From positions 1 to 32,643 of the forward strand of contig CAMVCQ010000014.1 in assembly GCA_947166015.1 (NCBI GenBank): DNA of 32,643 nt, given 5' to 3'. A program made the translations under genes and the position numbers. Shown piece after piece: positions 1,610 through 19,615 of the stretch. Numbering within the stretch: the first letter of the stretch is position 1; each line of letters opens with the position of its first letter. The notes below the pieces were generated by a model. The model saw only the letters and a program-made list of their open reading frames with translations, was not told the origin of the DNA and ran no database searches. The DNA comes from an uncultured Lachnospiraceae bacterium (GTDB taxonomy: Bacteria; Bacillota; Clostridia; Lachnospirales; Lachnospiraceae).

Positions 1610-4600
1610 ATGAGATATGCGGCTTTTGTCAGCTACAGGCATGAAGGGCTTGATGCTCAGATTGCAAAAAAAGTTGCATCGTATATCGAGAATTGGAAAA
1701 TTCCGAAAAAAATAGCCAAAGAGACAGGCAAAACCCGCTTCGGGAGAGTTTTTCGCGATGAGGACGAGCTGCAGGCTTCGAGCGATCTGTCGGCGGCGAT
1801 AGAGGAAGCGATCGATGAGACGGAATGGCTGATCGTTGTTTGTACAAAAAGGTACAAGGAGTCTCATTGGTGCCTGGAAGAGATAGAGTACTTTTTGAAG
1901 GATCACGACCGCGATCATATAATCGTGATCCTCGCTGAGGGAGAGCCTGACGAGAGCTTTCCGGATATTCTTACAACGATTGAAAGAGACGGAAAAACTG
2001 TCCATATCGAGCCGCTGGCTGTGGATATCAGGGCAGAGTCCGAAAAAGAGATATACAAAAACCTGAAAAATGAACGCTTCAGGTTTTTCTCTTCGATGCT
2101 GAAAGTAAACTATGATGATCTGAAAAACCGTCAGAGGTTGAGGAGACTTCGTTTTGTACTGGGCTCATCCGCTGCGGCTTTTTGCATTCTTATCGGCGTT
2201 CTTGCCGTGATACTCGCAAAAAATATTGAACTAAATCACGCCTATGATGCCCTGGACAAGTCTATGCAGGACACGTTGAAGGGTGAGTCGTATTATCTGT
2301 CCGAGTACGCTGATGAAGCCTACGCAAACGGTGATCCGAAAACCGCTATAAAGTTATCTTTGCAGGCTCTGCCTGATGATCTGCAAACCCCTGAAAGACC
2401 GTATGTTTCACAGGCTATGACTTCGCTTACAAAAGCACTTGGAGTCTATGATCACTCGGATGGCTACAGGGTGTTTGACTCGATTGACTTTGAGGGGGAG
2501 ACATTTGATGTAAGGACGGAGGTAAGCCCCGCGGGGGATACTCTTTTGGTGGAAAGATACACCTATGCTGCCGGAAACATGCTGGACAGAGAGGTCAGGG
2601 TATACAGACTGACTGACGGTCGGAGCATTTTTAATGAAGTGCTTGTGCCGCTTAACAGAAGCTGCTATCATTCGGCTTCGGTCGGTGCGAAGTTCTCAAA
2701 AGATGGGAAAAATGTCATCTTTGCCTCGGAGGATGGGTTGAAAGTAGTTGAACCCGAAACCACGAAGGTTGTATACACCGGAAAACCGGTCTCTGAGATC
2801 AGGACGGGAGTAAACTCCGATGTGGTTGTGGCGGTTGACTATGATGGCGGATATCTGTACGAGTACGGCAGCGGTGGCGAGGAGATCATAAGCTGTGAGA
2901 TAGGCAAGGATATGAATTACACGCTTGGGCAGATATCTCCGGATGAAAATATGGTTGCTCTCTCTGCGAAGGCGGAGGGGATGTTTGGTATCATAACCAT
3001 TGATTTGAAAACCGGTGAAAACGCTATGATACAGACACCGGGTGAGGCCTCGGATGTGAGGTTTATAGACAAAAACAGACTTTGCTTTTTGCAGGAGGAC
3101 TCCGAAGACGGCCTCAAGCACATAGTGTACTACAACTTATCTGATGCCGATGAGGGGTATCTGTGCAATACGGACTGGGATGTCCAGTCTATGGCGGTTT
3201 CAGACGCAATGACGGTGTATTATTACCATGATAACAGAGTTTTTGAGGTGGACTGCAAACACAAAAAAGGCAAAAAAATCTGGGAAAAGCTTTTCTCATC
3301 AAATGTCGTATCAGTGATCACGGGCAAAGATCTTGTGGCGATCACGTGCAGAGACGGCTCTGTGAACATTTTTACCGAGTCGGGCAAACAGGCGATAGGC
3401 ACGCCAGCCGGTGACAAGACTGCGTGCTATATGATGAATGTGGATGCTAAGTATGCTTGTATGAGGGATTATTGGGGCAAACACATCAGGATCTACAGAA
3501 AAAGTGATGAGGTCGAGGATGGAGTGGACAGCCTGAAACTCGCATCGGCTGAGAGATTTACGCCGAAAAAATGGTATCCCGCTTTTTCGGGAAACTGTGA
3601 GGGGTTTGGACTTGGGCTTCATTCAGGAAACAGAGATGTGCTCTCGCTTTTCGACGGAGTGGAGTTTGCTCAGTTGGCGGACGCGGACCTTGATGCGATC
3701 GGATATGAGGGCTTTGATGATCTCTCTCTCGATGTGAAAAACAGGGACTACTTTTGCGTGCAGGACTTCGGCTTCTATACAAATGCGCATTTTTTGATGA
3801 AGTCTTTTGAAAAGACGATGGAGTTTGGTGAGGATTCGTTTTATTTCTATGAAGAAACGGGAGAAAAGCTGTATCTGTCAAAAGGGAAAAAAGTGATCGA
3901 GTATGAGGCTGCAACCGGAAAAAAAGTCCGGGAAATCGATATTCCGGATGGCTTTGACAGGGGAGTTGATATAAACGGTGCGGACATTTTTGGAAACGAT
4001 GATTCGATAAGGATCGTTTATTCCAACGGCACTACGGAAAATGTCGACCTGCCCGATGCGGTGCTCTACAGCTTCAATGCCAAGAGAAATCTGATATTCT
4101 ATCGAAACAAGGCCAAGGACAGATGGTTTGCTTATGACATTGTCAAAAAGGCAGTTGTGTGCGAGGGAGAAGCCGGTGCGTACTCCTGCGTTATGTTTTT
4201 TGACAACAACAGATATCTTTTGAATGATTACAACAGTGTTTATGATATGGACACCTGGGAAAAGGTGCTTGACTTGAAAAAAATGGAGGGAAGCATCTAC
4301 GGTGTCCAGACAACGGATGAGAGTCCGTATTTTGCGGTGATGATCAGACAGAGCGAATCAGACGGCGCCGGAAACTCGGGCTCAAATATGGCGTATCTGT
4401 ATGACAAAAAAAGCCGCGAGATAGTGGGAGAGATTCCCGACTTTGTCACGATGACGCCGGACGGCAGAGTGGTTTCGTTTGATGGAAAGGATATGCTTTA
4501 CAGGTTCAGGCTGTACTCCGCAACCGAGCTTATAAAAATGGCAAAAGACAAGGTTGGCGGTGAAAAGTTCACTGACGCGCAGAGAGAGGAGTATCATTTG

Positions 4601-4612
4601 TATAATGAGTGA
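1610..4612 (+). CDS. Transmembrane TIR-domain protein with C-terminal propeller-like region
   Basis: A 1000-residue protein of receptor-like layout. Residues 1-130 form a TIR domain: FVSYRH (6-11) is the box-1-like strand, FRDEDEL lies at 49-55, and SHWCLEE (85-91) matches the W-C-L-x-E motif whose final glutamate (E91 here) is the catalytic residue of NAD-cleaving TIR enzymes. A hydrophobic helix at about 183-204 is preceded by RQRLRRLR, so by the positive-inside rule the TIR end should be cytoplasmic and the remaining 790 residues outside. After a helical linker (210-280) the rest reads as repeated beta strands (WD40/propeller-like). GGGAGG at 1595-1600 sets the start. It follows the DHH phosphoesterase by 15 bases and ends before a bidirectional terminator. 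The family is sure for the TIR domain. NAD hydrolysis, ligand sensing and any defence or signalling role are inference. Confidence 0.85.
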   Translation: MRYAAFVSYRHEGLDAQIAKKVASYIENWKIPKKIAKETGKTRFGRVFRDEDELQASSDLSAAIEEAIDETEWLIVVCTKRYKESHWCLEEIEYFLKDHDRDHIIVILAEGEPDESFPDILTTIERDGKTVHIEPLAVDIRAESEKEIYKNLKNERFRFFSSMLKVNYDDLKNRQRLRRLRFVLGSSAAAFCILIGVLAVILAKNIELNHAYDALDKSMQDTLKGESYYLSEYADEAYANGDPKTAIKLSLQALPDDLQTPERPYVSQAMTSLTKALGVYDHSDGYRVFDSIDFEGETFDVRTEVSPAGDTLLVERYTYAAGNMLDREVRVYRLTDGRSIFNEVLVPLNRSCYHSASVGAKFSKDGKNVIFASEDGLKVVEPETTKVVYTGKPVSEIRTGVNSDVVVAVDYDGGYLYEYGSGGEEIISCEIGKDMNYTLGQISPDENMVALSAKAEGMFGIITIDLKTGENAMIQTPGEASDVRFIDKNRLCFLQEDSEDGLKHIVYYNLSDADEGYLCNTDWDVQSMAVSDAMTVYYYHDNRVFEVDCKHKKGKKIWEKLFSSNVVSVITGKDLVAITCRDGSVNIFTESGKQAIGTPAGDKTACYMMNVDAKYACMRDYWGKHIRIYRKSDEVEDGVDSLKLASAERFTPKKWYPAFSGNCEGFGLGLHSGNRDVLSLFDGVEFAQLADADLDAIGYEGFDDLSLDVKNRDYFCVQDFGFYTNAHFLMKSFEKTMEFGEDSFYFYEETGEKLYLSKGKKVIEYEAATGKKVREIDIPDGFDRGVDINGADIFGNDDSIRIVYSNGTTENVDLPDAVLYSFNAKRNLIFYRNKAKDRWFAYDIVKKAVVCEGEAGAYSCVMFFDNNRYLLNDYNSVYDMDTWEKVLDLKKMEGSIYGVQTTDESPYFAVMIRQSESDGAGNSGSNMAYLYDKKSREIVGEIPDFVTMTPDGRVVSFDGKDMLYRFRLYSATELIKMAKDKVGGEKFTDAQREEYHLYNE

Positions 4613-10914: not shown

Positions 10915-11991
10915 ATGTCAGATATGAAACAAAAGGATCCAAACAAACTTCGCGCATTGGAATCCGCGATCGCTCAGATTGAAAAGCAGTATGGACAGGG
11001 TTCCATCATGAAGCTTGGAGACAACTCACATCTTCAGGTTGAATCGACACCCACAGGTTCGCTCAGTCTTGATATCGCCCTCGGAGTCGGTGGTGTACCG
11101 AAGGGCAGGGTTATCGAGATATATGGGCCGGAGTCAAGCGGAAAGACTACGGTTGCGCTTCATATGGTAGCGGAAGTTCAGAAACGCGGTGGTATTGCCG
11201 GATTTATCGACGCAGAGCATGCGCTTGATCCGGTCTATGCAAAAAACATCGGAGTAGATATCAATGATCTCTACATCTCGCAGCCGGATAGCGGTGAGCA
11301 GGCTATGGAGATCACGGAGACTATGGTGCGTTCGGGAGCTGTGGATATCGTGATCGTGGATTCGGTCGCAGCACTGGTACCGAAAGCTGAGATAGACGGA
11401 GATATGGGAGATTCCCATGTCGGATTGCAGGCCAGACTTATGAGCCAGGCACTCCGTAAGCTCACCAGCGTTATCAATAAATCAAACTGTACTGTTATCT
11501 TTATCAATCAGCTTCGCGAGAAGATCGGTGTTATGTTCGGTAACCCGGAGACAACTACGGGCGGTCGTGCGCTCAAGTTCTATGCATCCGTAAGGATTGA
11601 GGTGCGCAGGATCGAGACTCTGTCTCAGGCAGGTGAAAAGATCGGAAACCGTGTTCGCGCAAAGATAGTCAAAAACAAAGTTGCACCGCCGTTTACCGAA
11701 GCAGAGTTTGATATTATGTTCGGTAAAGGCATTTCAAGAGAGGGTGATGTGCTCGATCTGGCTGCATCACAGGATATCATAGTTAAGTCCGGAGCATGGT
11801 ATAGTTACAAGGGCGAAAGGATAGGACAGGGACGCGAGAATGCCAAAACGTTTCTTGCAGAGAATCCTGAGATTTTTGATGAGGTTGAGCAGGCAGTCAG
11901 AGACAAGATGCTTTCAAAGGACTCGGGGTCAGAAGAGGAAAAGGATGAGGAAGCTCCCGCAAAAGGAGCCAAGTCCGAAGCCGATAAATGA
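10915..11991 (+). CDS. recA: Recombinase RecA
   Basis: DNA-dependent ATPase that forms filaments on single-stranded DNA, performs strand exchange and stimulates LexA self-cleavage. The 358-residue protein shows the Walker A loop GPESSGKTT (71-79), the MAW-type signature [14 protein letters not shown], and an acidic disordered tail ([13 protein letters not shown]). Length is normal. GGAGGA (10905-10910) precedes ATG 10915. It is a single-gene transcript, with its own promoter and LexA box upstream and a strong terminator at 12036. Expression should rise on DNA damage. Confidence 0.98.
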
Positions 11992-12064: not shown

Positions 12065-12073
12065 ATTGCTTTG

Positions 12074-12106
12074 TTAAAAAAAATCATAAAATCTGATTTT
12101 TCTTAA
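12074..12106. promoter_or_regulatory. Operator-like palindrome upstream of the leuA promoter (copy 1)
   Basis: TTAAAAAAAATCA (12074-12086), 7-base spacer, TGATTTTTCTTAA (12094-12106). The inverted repeat extends outward by TTG/CAA to 16 bp per arm with one mismatch. It ends 9 bases before the -35 element. Its half-sites recur in a second palindrome at 12154-12183 on the other side of the promoter. Confidence 0.6.
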
Positions 12107-12115
12107 CAAAAACTC

Positions 12116-12144
12116 TTGACATACGGAATAATCGGTGCTACAAT
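12116..12144 (+). promoter_or_regulatory. leuA promoter
   Basis: TTGACA (12116-12121), 17-base spacer, TACAAT (12139-12144). The predicted leader to ATG 12217 is about 65 bases. It has no T-box or leader-peptide features. Confidence 0.85.
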
Positions 12145-12183: not shown

Positions 12184-12216
12184 CATCACATAGAAGAGAA
12201 ACGGAGGTAAAGACTT

Positions 12217-14226
12217 ATGAAAGGATACGAAAAATACGAACCGCCGTATTTCATGCCACCCGAGGTGACATACGACTGGGTTACAAAAAAGGAGATAACC
12301 AAACCGCCGGTATGGTGTTCGGTGGATCTAAGAGATGGAAACCAGGCTTTGATAGAGCCGATGAGCCTTCAGGAGAAGCTCGACTATTTTGATCTGCTTG
12401 TTAAAGTTGGATTTAAAGAAATTGAGGTTGGCTTTCCGGCTGCATCTGAGACAGAGTACGAATTTATGCGTGCTTTGATAGAACAGAACAAAATCCCTGA
12501 GGATGTTACAGTTCAGGTATTAACTCAAGCGAGAGAGCATATCATCAGAAAGACATTTGAAGCTGTCAAGGGTGCACCCTGTGCTGTTGTACATCTTTAC
12601 AATTCAACATCCGTTGCTCAAAGAGAGCAGGTTTTCAAAAAAGACAAGGATGAGATATTGAAAATAGCTGTTGACGGAGCAAAGCTGTTAAAAGAGCTTG
12701 CTGATCAGACAGAGGGTAACTTTAGATTTGAGTACAGTCCTGAGAGCTTCCCGGGAACTGAGGTTGAGTACGCTGTTGAGGTATGTAACGCGGTTCTCGA
12801 CATCTGGAAGCCGACACCTGATTGGAAGGTTATCATCAATATCCCTACAACTGTTGAAAACGCAATGCCTCACGTGTTCGCATCACAGCTTGAGTATGTG
12901 CACAAGCATCTGAAGTACAGAGACGGAGTTGTACTTTCGCTTCATCCGCACAACGACAGAGGCGAGGGTGTTGCTACTGCCGAGCTTGGTGTGCTTGCCG
13001 GAGCTGATCGTATCGAGGGAACACTTTTTGGAAACGGAGAGAGGACTGGTAATGTCGACATAGTCACGATCGCTATGAATATGTTTTCACATGGATACGA
13101 TCCGGGACTTGATTTTTCAAATATGACCGAGATCAGACAGAGATACGAGAGCTATACCCGCATGGTAGTTCCTCCTCGTCAGCCGTACGCAGGAGATTTG
13201 GTGTTTACCGCATTTTCGGGCTCGCACCAGGATGCCATCGCAAAAGGTATGCAGTGGAGAGAGGACGGGAAAACGGATAAATGGTCTGTGCCGTATCTGC
13301 CGGTTGACCCGAAGGATGTTGGAAGGACCTATGATTCCGATGTTATCAGGATCAACAGCCAGTCCGGAAAAGGCGGCGTAAACTACACCCTCAAGCAGAA
13401 TTTCGGAATCGTGCTTCCGGAGAGCATGAGAGAAGAGGTTGGCTACCTTATGAAAAATGTCTCCGACGAGGAGCACAAGGAGCTCTCGCCTCAGTGGATA
13501 TACGAGATATTTGCGGATAATTACATCAACCCGACACCTGTATTCCAGATAAATGAATGCCATTTCAAGCAGGTTGACGGGATCATGGCAAGTGTTACCA
13601 TCACCTGCGGAGACAAAGACACTGTGATCGACGCAAACGGAAACGGAAGAATAGATGCTGTCAGCAACGCTATCAAGCAGTTTTTCGGCATCAGCTATCA
13701 GCTGACAAGCTACGAGGAGCACGCGCTTACCAAAGGCTCATCGTCGAAAGCCATAGCATTTGTCAGTGTGACCTGCGATAACTCGGTGTACTGGGGTGCG
13801 GGGATCCACGAGGATACTATCACTGCAGCGATCCACGCACTTGCAGTTTGCGTAAACAAGCTTCCTTCCGTGAAAAACAACGAAGAGCTCAAAGACGAGC
13901 GCCTCATAAAAATGATGAACTACATGCAGGAAAACTACAAAACAGTTACGCTTGAGGAACTTGCTTCAAAAATGAACCTCTCGGAGCCGTACATCAGTAA
14001 GTACATCCATGACAAGAGTGGCAAAACATTCAAAGAGATGATCACTTCGATCAGGCTCAAAAAAGCAAGGACATTGCTCAAAAACGGATCGATGAGCGTT
14101 GAGAATATCGCGCTTTCGATCGGGTATCCAAATTCCGAGCACTTCAGCAGGGTGTTCAAGAAAAAGTACAACATGACACCTGTTCAGTACAGAAATGACC
14201 AAAACAAGCCTGACCAGGGGAGGTAG
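12217..14226 (+). CDS. leuA: 2-isopropylmalate synthase fused to a C-terminal AraC-type DNA-binding domain
   Basis: The enzyme part catalyses the first committed step of leucine synthesis (acetyl-CoA plus 2-ketoisovalerate). LRDGNQ (38-43) is the catalytic start of the HMGL-like TIM barrel; LHPHND holds the metal ligands H243 and H245, and FGNGERTGN follows near 276. Residues about 430-555 form the LeuA allosteric (leucine-binding) domain. At about 562-662 the same open frame continues into a full AraC/XylS double helix-turn-helix: VTLEELASKMNLSEPYISKYI, then SVENIALSIGYPNSEHFSRVFKK and the family ending MTPVQYR. LeuA normally ends near 510-560 residues, so the extra 100 residues match the DNA-binding module. 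No frameshift or internal stop separates the parts. GGAGG precedes the ATG. leuB, leuC and leuD are not in the window. Autoregulation is inference, supported by palindromes around its promoter. Confidence 0.93.
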   Translation: MKGYEKYEPPYFMPPEVTYDWVTKKEITKPPVWCSVDLRDGNQALIEPMSLQEKLDYFDLLVKVGFKEIEVGFPAASETEYEFMRALIEQNKIPEDVTVQVLTQAREHIIRKTFEAVKGAPCAVVHLYNSTSVAQREQVFKKDKDEILKIAVDGAKLLKELADQTEGNFRFEYSPESFPGTEVEYAVEVCNAVLDIWKPTPDWKVIINIPTTVENAMPHVFASQLEYVHKHLKYRDGVVLSLHPHNDRGEGVATAELGVLAGADRIEGTLFGNGERTGNVDIVTIAMNMFSHGYDPGLDFSNMTEIRQRYESYTRMVVPPRQPYAGDLVFTAFSGSHQDAIAKGMQWREDGKTDKWSVPYLPVDPKDVGRTYDSDVIRINSQSGKGGVNYTLKQNFGIVLPESMREEVGYLMKNVSDEEHKELSPQWIYEIFADNYINPTPVFQINECHFKQVDGIMASVTITCGDKDTVIDANGNGRIDAVSNAIKQFFGISYQLTSYEEHALTKGSSSKAIAFVSVTCDNSVYWGAGIHEDTITAAIHALAVCVNKLPSVKNNEELKDERLIKMMNYMQENYKTVTLEELASKMNLSEPYISKYIHDKSGKTFKEMITSIRLKKARTLLKNGSMSVENIALSIGYPNSEHFSRVFKKKYNMTPVQYRNDQNKPDQGR

Positions 14227-14238
14227 GAGAGAGATCAG

Positions 14239-14616
14239 ATGTATAAACACAGATTGAAAAAAGCTCTTGCATACTACAGGGAGCTTCTCAAAAATAGTCA
14301 GATAGATGAAGCGACCGCCCAAAGAGAGATGAAAAGACTCGCGACGCAGATAGCATTTTTTCAGCACGAGCGATTGGTGCACCTGATAGTTACGGTTCTT
14401 TTCGGACTCTCGACGGTGATCACAATACCGTTTAACCTGATGCTTATGCAGCCGGCGCTTATGCTTCTTTCGGGACTGCTCATCGTGCTGCTTGTTCCGT
14501 ATATCGGACATTATTTTCACCTCGAAAACGGCGTGCAGACGCTGTACAAATACTATGATTTCCTGGAGAGGATAGCTGACAAGGAGCTGGTAGATATATA
14601 TGAATACGATATCTGA
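14239..14616 (+). CDS. Small membrane protein, 125 aa, unknown function
   Basis: I do not recognise the family. The first 50 residues are charged and helical (HRLKKALAYYRELLKNSQ). Two membrane helices follow at roughly 50-90 (LIVTVLFGLSTVITIPFNLM and ALMLLSGLLIVLLVPYIGHY), and a short cytoplasmic-looking tail completes it. It starts 12 bases after the leuA stop with AGGAGAGA (14225-14232) as its ribosome binding site, and its last 17 bases overlap recX, so it is part of the leuA-recX operon. Confidence 0.75.
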   Translation: MYKHRLKKALAYYRELLKNSQIDEATAQREMKRLATQIAFFQHERLVHLIVTVLFGLSTVITIPFNLMLMQPALMLLSGLLIVLLVPYIGHYFHLENGVQTLYKYYDFLERIADKELVDIYEYDI

Positions 14617-18880: not shown

Positions 18881-18892
18881 AGTGAGGTGCCT

Positions 18893-19615
18893 ATGAAGCA
18901 GGTAGTCAGCTTTCTTATAAACGGAAAAGAGTTTGGCCTTGATATGACCAGGACCAAGACTATTGACAATCCCAGAGAGCTTATCATCAGGGATGATCAG
19001 CCGGATTTTGTCCAGGGTGTGATGAATATCCATGGAGAGATGATCCCTATAGTTGATGTAGCTCAGAGGATGCAGCTTCCCGAGATCGACCCGTCAGAGA
19101 TCGATGAGATTGAAAAAAGGGTGCTTGTATTTTTGAATAAGTCAGGCAACTATGGAATACCTGTAGATGCGGTTACGGAGATATTTAGGGTGGACGATGC
19201 CGATGTTCAGCGGATCCCGAGCTTTTTCTCCGGGAGTGAGACTGATTACACGGAGTGCATTGTAAAAAAAGGCAATTCACTTGTGCTCGTCCTTGATCCG
19301 GACAGATTCCTCCTTCCCAAGCAGTGGGATGAGATGATTGTTCTCATGGAAAACATAGAAAAAGAACGCATAGAGGAAGAAAAAAGAAAGCGTGAAGAAC
19401 TCAGGCGCAAAAAAGAAGAAGAAAAAAGAAAAAGAGAAGAAGAGATGAAAGCCATGGCTGAGGCTCAAAACGCCGAAGCGCAGGCCGACGCCGACGCCGA
19501 AAAAGCCGAGGACAATACAGAAACACAAACCGAAAACGACGCCGATAAAACTGTCGAGAAAAACGACGCACAAGATGAAGCGCCGCAGGAAGGAGATAAA
19601 TCAGAAAATGACTAA
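18893..19615 (+). CDS. CheW-domain chemotaxis protein with long charged tail
   Basis: A CheW-like coupling protein links chemoreceptors to the CheA kinase. Residues 1-150 form the CheW fold: MKQVVSFLINGKEFGLDM, GVMNIHGEMIPIVDVAQRM, YGIPVDAVTEIFRV and LVLVLDPDRFL. A classical CheW ends there. This one adds about 90 residues: a lysine/arginine/glutamate stretch likely to form a single charged helix (EEEKRKREELRRKKEEEKRK), then a disordered acidic Ala/Asp/Asn/Thr tail. I prefer ATG 18893, with GAGGTG at 18884-18889, over a GTG six bases earlier. It follows prfB by 12 bases and its stop overlaps the start of hom. Whether it works as CheW or as a CheV-like scaffold is not known; no receiver domain is present. 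Confidence 0.85.
   Translation: MKQVVSFLINGKEFGLDMTRTKTIDNPRELIIRDDQPDFVQGVMNIHGEMIPIVDVAQRMQLPEIDPSEIDEIEKRVLVFLNKSGNYGIPVDAVTEIFRVDDADVQRIPSFFSGSETDYTECIVKKGNSLVLVLDPDRFLLPKQWDEMIVLMENIEKERIEEEKRKREELRRKKEEEKRKREEEMKAMAEAQNAEAQADADAEKAEDNTETQTENDADKTVEKNDAQDEAPQEGDKSEND

Follow-up and report, generated by a model that had tools for sequence, protein, structure and literature searches.

A 2-isopropylmalate synthase fused to an AraC-type DNA-binding domain in Lachnospiraceae, and a predicted operator upstream of its gene

The fused gene and its locus

The window, meaning the whole stretch of 32,643 nucleotides analysed from an uncultured Lachnospiraceae bacterium, contains a gene, here called leuA-HTH, that encodes a protein of 669 amino acids in a single open frame from ATG to TAG (Table 1). 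All five Pfam matches of this protein exceed their curated cut-offs. The C-terminal double helix-turn-helix (HTH), PF12833, scores 74.3 bits against a cut-off of 33.6, and HTH_AraC is also matched at residues 622–660 (46 bits). The NCBIfam LeuA model PRK03739 covers residues 5–548 at 788 bits (cut-off 455) and stops before the HTH, while the leuA_yeast model TIGR00970 scores 650, under its cut-off of 697. Pfam matched no AraC-type N-terminal sensor/dimerisation domain in the protein; LeuA occupies that place. A preliminary description of this DNA had proposed that a complete LeuA is joined in one frame to a complete AraC-type HTH ending in MTPVQYR, and the open reading frame, Pfam and NCBIfam all confirm it; the window sequence has neither a stop nor a frameshift near codon 560.

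Table 1. Features of leuA-HTH, its promoter and sites at other genes (positions are those of the window; sites in other genomes are given by locus and genome).
Feature	Position or locus	Strand	Basis
leuA-HTH, 2-isopropylmalate synthase with AraC-type DNA-binding domain	12217..14226	+	ORF translation, Pfam, NCBIfam
HMGL-like catalytic barrel, residues 32–308	12310..13140	+	Pfam, 237 bits
IPMS_D2 post-catalytic domain, residues 327–393	13195..13395	+	Pfam, 115 bits
LeuA_dimer allosteric (leucine-binding) domain, residues 423–549	13483..13863	+	Pfam, 83 bits
Variable linker and first helices of HTH region, residues 550–581	13864..13959	+	conservation, structure model
HTH_18 double helix-turn-helix, residues 582–660	13960..14196	+	Pfam, 74 bits
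Predicted recognition helix 1, residues 590–601	13984..14019	+	conservation, structure model
Predicted recognition helix 2, residues 640–651; E641, F643, R645, F647 invariant	14134..14169	+	conservation, structure model
O1, predicted upstream operator (diverged) with half-sites in inverted order, TTAAAAAAAATCAT / TTAAGAAAAATCAG	12074..12106	+	matrix from other species
-35 box TTGACA, identical to consensus, in contrast to most relatives	12116..12121	+	
-10 box TACAAT, 17-bp spacer	12139..12144	+	
O2, inverted repeat of O1-type half-site, TTAAAAAACATCAAAAATGATATTTTTTAA	12154..12183	+	nine bases after -10
Ribosome-binding site GGAGG	12203..12207	+	by eye
R1 site before leuB-ilvD	L210, G378		
R1 site before leuCD	L212, G244		
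R1 site before leuD-leuC type pair	L214, G239		family-level, not equivalog, scores
R1 site, partial, before ilvN-ilvC	L215, G074		

leuA-HTH is flanked by a recA-like ORF (10915–11991, assigned by eye) and recX, and no leu operon surrounds it. In the window genome (G000) leuA-HTH is the sole LeuA match at E≤1e-60; one further HMGL-like ORF scores weakly and is not LeuA-like. An ORF of 125 amino acids (14239–14613, forward strand) stands between leuA-HTH and recX, with a hydrophobic stretch noted by eye and no Pfam match. Elsewhere on the forward strand of the window, a protein of 1000 amino acids (1610–4609) carries an N-terminal TIR domain (TIR_2, 43 bits, with weak ThsB_TIR and PADLOC ThsB matches) followed by a long C-terminal part without a Pfam match, and a gene at 18887–19612 encodes a CheW-like domain with a long and strongly charged tail behind it.

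Conservation and structure of the fused protein

The metal-binding and catalytic residues, which we take to be those represented by R80, D81, E218, H285, H287, N321, H379 and Y410 in Mycobacterium tuberculosis LeuA, are invariant in 78 fusions, as is the GNG motif of the leucine site (residues 475–477). The GNG loop is equally invariant in 13 other LeuAs (ten without an HTH, two with the HTH out of frame and one cut). By its sequence leuA-HTH is an intact enzyme, and it would be expected to be catalytically active and inhibited by leucine.

Within the HTH the invariant residues are Y592, S594, G602, F605, K615, G636, Y637, E641, F643, R645, F647 and P655. Residues 590–601 and 640–651 are presumably the recognition helices, a role assigned by analogy with AraC and MarA. 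Codon comparisons indicate strong purifying selection on the HTH, with a median dN/dS of 0.020 (20 pairs). The medians of the other parts are 0.027 (catalytic domain, 24 pairs), 0.032 (LeuA_dimer, 24) and 0.049 (linker, 23). A check across relatives for loss of DNA-contact residues found the HTH conserved.

The AlphaFold2 model of the protein has a mean pLDDT of 75 and a pTM of 0.52, residues 320–387 being mostly poor, and in it the HTH region forms seven helices with block pLDDT values of 80–89. The top Foldseek matches of the model are M. tuberculosis LeuA structures.

Distribution and history of the fusion

The fusion is found in 23 of 39 genomes of the genus, including the window's own, the remaining ones being 76–92% identical. 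Two of the 23 are imperfect: in G008 codon 265 is a TGA in frame, and that of G018 is cut by a contig end. Among the other genomes of the genus, G020 and G024 have a LeuA that is 77–78% identical and lacks the HTH, twelve have only a distant LeuA (49–52%) and two have none. In the family (Lachnospiraceae-like genomes), a LeuA ORF of at least 640 amino acids occurs in at least 89 of 397 genomes, and named contigs bearing the fusion include Lachnospiraceae bacterium P6B14, COE1, Butyrivibrio sp. and Agathobacter sp. Five genomes with the fusion consist of one contig (G073, G123, G228, G333 and G360). Since the fusion recurs across genus and family, one-contig genomes included, chance or assembly error is a very unlikely origin. 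In a sample of the class, 13 of 391 genomes match through residue 660 or further, three of them (G508, G644 and G646) in other families, where the fusion could stem from transfer or from binning contamination.

Of 119 LeuA loci, 102 carry the HTH in the leuA frame and two in another frame; in the other 15 it is absent or cut. A tree of the LeuA parts of these loci, built by a quick method and with 44 of 116 inner branches weak, requires six changes of the HTH label, compared with a mean of 14.4 after shuffling. The HTH-less loci L102/L104, L206 and L106/L107 are nested among HTH-bearing rows. The fusion is widespread in the family.

Several loci depart from the usual form. In L100 and L120 (5560–5760 in each) the HTH follows leuA directly in another frame, an arrangement that could represent a split gene, frameshifting or assembly error; L120 has a run of nine A at the leuA/HTH junction. 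L013 and L060 (MAG RGIG8302) have a TGA in frame at leuA codon 265, with operator and HTH retained.

A predicted operator upstream of fused leuA

A predicted operator of about 39 bp, TTAAAAAAnATCAAnnAAAnTGATTAAATTTAATCATT, is found upstream of fused leuA, mostly in one copy per genome. It contains three ATCA/TGAT elements at spacings of 11 and 12 bp, each about one helical turn, and a double HTH is expected to need elements about one helical turn apart. The candidate operator stands at a fixed distance from an extended -10 box and overlies the -35 position. Sixty-three sites, selected because they match the core at 19 or more of its 26 positions, can be aligned gap-free, spacer included, to the extended -10, whose TG is present in 57 of them. 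At the -35 position 61 of the 63 sites have two or more mismatches to TTGACA. Two or fewer mismatches are found in 26 of the 63, compared with about 16% in simulated AT-rich sequence; random sequence rich in AT thus does no better at this position, indeed somewhat worse, so that a weak -35 box may be present. After the -10, 29 of 61 loci have a second site that passes a shuffle-based threshold of 99%; by eye they belong mainly to two groups.

An IUPAC pattern of the operator (up to three mismatches) has exactly one match in each of 22 of the 39 genus genomes, whereas the reversed pattern, used as a control, matched none of the 39. The genomes matched are 21 of the 23 with the fusion, none of the 14 with LeuA ORFs too short for an HTH, and G028, in which the match stands at a contig end and no LeuA was found. 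Across the 397 family genomes, the profile R1 gives 50 matches at E≤1e-5, all 50 upstream of leuA and on the same strand. Forty-eight of these precede fused ORFs. The other two had looked like operators without an HTH and were rejected as such: in G099 (locus L100) the HTH is present in another frame, and in G200 (L205) the contig ends inside it. The same holds for L120, with its HTH in another frame after an A9 run at the junction, and for L013, which has the in-frame TGA within leuA. At E≤0.01, R1 gives 86 matches, 70 of them upstream of leuA (66 on the same strand), and covers 63 of the at least 89 genomes with the fusion. Both the pattern and R1 were built from fused loci, so the presence of sites at such loci is partly a matter of construction; the absence of the operator elsewhere and in HTH-less relatives is not an artefact of this kind.

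Association of the operator with the HTH

Scored with a leave-one-out matrix, 115 loci comprise 88 with both HTH and operator, 13 with the HTH and no operator, 14 with neither and none with the operator alone, where lack of an operator means that no site scores 10 or more. L205, L105, L090 and L234 were left out of this table (cut, or with less than 200 bp upstream). L095 and L400 apparently share one contig, so the operator there, counted in the matrix, is no independent evidence. The association is strong when kinship is ignored (Fisher p 6e-11); correction for kinship leaves five independent pairs, about four concordant and none discordant (p 0.125). L233 (G277), a fusion whose HTH contact helices are degenerate, was coded as lacking the HTH; it has no operator, which is an instance of joint decay, and a T-box-like sequence is present.

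Eight of the 13 exceptions with an HTH score between 0 and 9.5, all above the range of the HTH-less loci (-8.5 to -41.9). The remaining five (L238, L097, L236, L223 and L115) score below -11, L115 offering only 288 bp to scan. L073, L074, L079, L080 and L048, candidate fusions without an operator, were rejected as such, the operator being present 502–1552 bp upstream of leuA; at this distance leuA may share a transcript with other genes or a T-box.

A T-box was found by Rfam at 12 of the 13 HTH-less loci submitted, or 11 of 12 because L106 and L207 are one gene, and at one of the seven fused loci submitted. None was found in the window. In the comparative set of loci, from which LeuA matches were dropped if they had fewer than 520 residues, began beyond residue 8, contained a stop or were identical, a simpler T-box string occurs at 24 of 101 loci with an HTH, which suggests that many fused genes carry both a T-box and the HTH.

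The window's own promoter

A matrix of 59 sites taken from other species, to which neither the window nor G017 contributed, places the best site of the 32.6 kb at 12073–12111, at the leuA-HTH promoter, with a score of 8.1; the next, at -3.8, overlaps it on the other strand. The best score in 60 simulated windows is -1.8. The left 25 bp of the site score 21.8 against a simulated maximum of 11.8, and the right part is diverged. Neither the IUPAC pattern nor R1 has a match anywhere in the window genome, and the claim of an operator is consequently weaker for this species than for its relatives. Given the consensus -35, the diverged upstream site and O2, the window copy may act mainly as a leucine-dependent repressor, and for this copy repression appears as likely as activation.

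Sites at other genes

R1 at E≤0.01 also gives 16 matches away from leuA. Four of the ten inspected stand before leucine or branched-chain genes in genomes with the fusion (Table 1). A broader regulon was also sought. No good site was found before ilvC at 30 loci, drawn from the 38 genus genomes with ilvC. In 80 chosen genomes (54 with the fusion and 26 without), leuC was found in all 80 and leuB in 79; a site scoring 5 or more precedes leuC in two fusion genomes and leuB in two, and none of the 26 others has one, with no overall shift in upstream scores between the two sets for leuB or leuC (p 0.44 and 0.63). An initial leuC search with TIGR00170 had matched none of the 39 genus genomes, this being the wrong LeuC subfamily; the LeuC here is TIGR02083. 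When R1 was applied to 40 fusion genomes at a relaxed threshold, the leuB, leuCD and leuDC sites were recovered again together with 19 weak others (E 0.002–0.09), and the four of these 19 that were inspected have no leucine gene beside them. The ilvC, leuB and leuC scans thus do not support a leucine or branched-chain amino acid regulon as the rule. The usual strong target is leuA alone, and sites at other leucine-pathway genes are the exception, though the operator may have targets beyond those noted.

Mode of regulation

It is likely, judging from sequence, that LeuA-HTH is a leucine-feedback-inhibited trigger enzyme whose fused AraC-type domain binds the operator at its own promoter, so that one molecule probably both makes leucine and adjusts its own production. 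An operator over the -35 position and beside the -10 is the layout known from class II activation by AraC. With the operator so placed at an extended -10, the fusion probably activates its own gene when leucine is scarce, and promoter geometry supports activation in most of the clade. Leucine-free LeuA-HTH would then act from the site over the -35, and leucine, bound at the conserved site of the LeuA_dimer domain, would probably halt both the reaction and the effect on DNA. The second operator after the -10, present in the sub-clade of the window and in one other group, points to a repressing mode. AraC represses by DNA looping, and repression from the second site could perhaps proceed likewise.

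The preliminary description had suggested that enzyme and DNA-acting regulator could be one molecule. Selection on the HTH, the occurrence of the operator with the HTH and its absence from the HTH-less relatives tested strongly support this; the loci L100 and L120, with the HTH in another frame, and L233, with a degenerate HTH, speak against it. Its further suggestion, sensing of leucine through the enzyme's own feedback site, may hold, that site being conserved. The two out-of-frame loci, L100 and L120, which keep the operator, are also what favours a DNA-binding form that is a separate HTH polypeptide (from an internal start, cleavage or a split gene) and not the joined enzyme. We regard this as improbable, since of 104 loci with an HTH 102 have it in the leuA frame. 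Slightly more doubtful still is a separate regulator that uses the operator, the HTH of LeuA having some other or structural role. An AraC-type protein is seen in L211, and other AraC-type proteins are common in genomes of this kind, but the operator is absent at all 14 tested loci without an intact HTH, L102/L104, L206 and L233 included, and the strong operator occurs once per genome. That the HTH is a functionless, neutral passenger would agree with its loss in L102/L104, L206 and L106/L107, and is contradicted by its low dN/dS (0.020), by the invariant residues in the predicted contact helices and by the association with the operator, which together make it extremely improbable.

A more serious competitor, though still an unlikely one, accepts regulation of the own promoter and questions leucine as the signal: the HTH might act constitutively or follow occupancy by the substrates ketoisovalerate or acetyl-CoA. 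Conservation of the leucine site is expected from feedback inhibition alone, the GNG loop being just as invariant in the 13 other LeuAs, and the trigger enzyme PutA responds to its substrate, according to passages of PMC8249747. Leucine as the signal is favoured by the short linker that joins the HTH to the leucine-binding dimerisation domain, and by the position of the extra sites at leucine-pathway genes. The fullest version of the preferred reading, a single-chain leucine homeostat that uses the enzyme's end-product site as its ligand domain, activates mainly its own gene from the site over the -35 and represses it from the second site, has replaced the T-box in a large group of gut bacteria and, in a few lineages, is starting to reach leuB, leuCD and ilvN promoters, could equally well prove right or wrong.

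Significance and comparison with known systems

No report of a LeuA-AraC fusion was found in the PMC full-text literature, a body whose coverage leaves out most subscription papers and preprints; this agrees with the statement in the preliminary description that no described example was known. What is new here is the operator upstream of fused leuA and its association with the HTH. LeuA-HTH is present in dozens of bacterial genera from gut and rumen. The matching NCBIfam models would label the fusion as plain 2-isopropylmalate synthase, leaving an annotation gap. The separate lineages in which HTH and operator were lost together, with a T-box as the alternative, constitute a natural experiment. 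For Lachnospiraceae, a promoter that responds to leucine and a switch made of one protein are predicted.

Only a few trigger enzymes have a DNA-binding role, and LeuA-HTH would add an anabolic amino-acid case in which an allosteric site serves as a ready sensor. Those of Escherichia coli named in passages of PMC8249747 are BirA, NadR, PepA, PutA and PyrH, and LeuA is not among the trigger enzymes named in the passages available from PMC8249747 and PMC6978683. PutA, the proline dehydrogenase, is likewise an amino-acid-pathway enzyme with a DNA-binding domain by which it controls its own gene, and is presented as a single-target regulator in E. coli (passages of PMC8249747). PutA is a catabolic enzyme and a repressor, whereas LeuA-HTH is biosynthetic, with an allosteric site for the end product, a domain of the AraC type and a promoter whose geometry resembles that of an activated one. 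The DNA-binding fold of PutA is a ribbon-helix-helix. The biotin ligase BirA represses an operon of other enzymes, and its signal and HTH type differ from those of LeuA-HTH. Like LeuA-HTH, BirA unites enzyme and DNA-binding domain in one chain and controls its own pathway (passages of PMC8249747 and PMC6978683); its HTH is N-terminal, as stated in part of PMC4016012.

A T-box leader upstream of leuA controls leuA too, but by an RNA mechanism. M. tuberculosis LeuA (PDB 1sr9 and 3fig) is 45% identical over the Foldseek alignment and shares the domains up to the regulatory domain, after which its chain ends in the alignment; we take it to be without a DNA-binding domain. The C-terminal double HTH is shared with AraC/XylS regulators, the nearest solved by sequence being 6swi and XylR (4fe4), and seven helices are predicted here. 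In those regulators the sensor is the usual ligand-binding domain; in LeuA-HTH it would be a whole enzyme.
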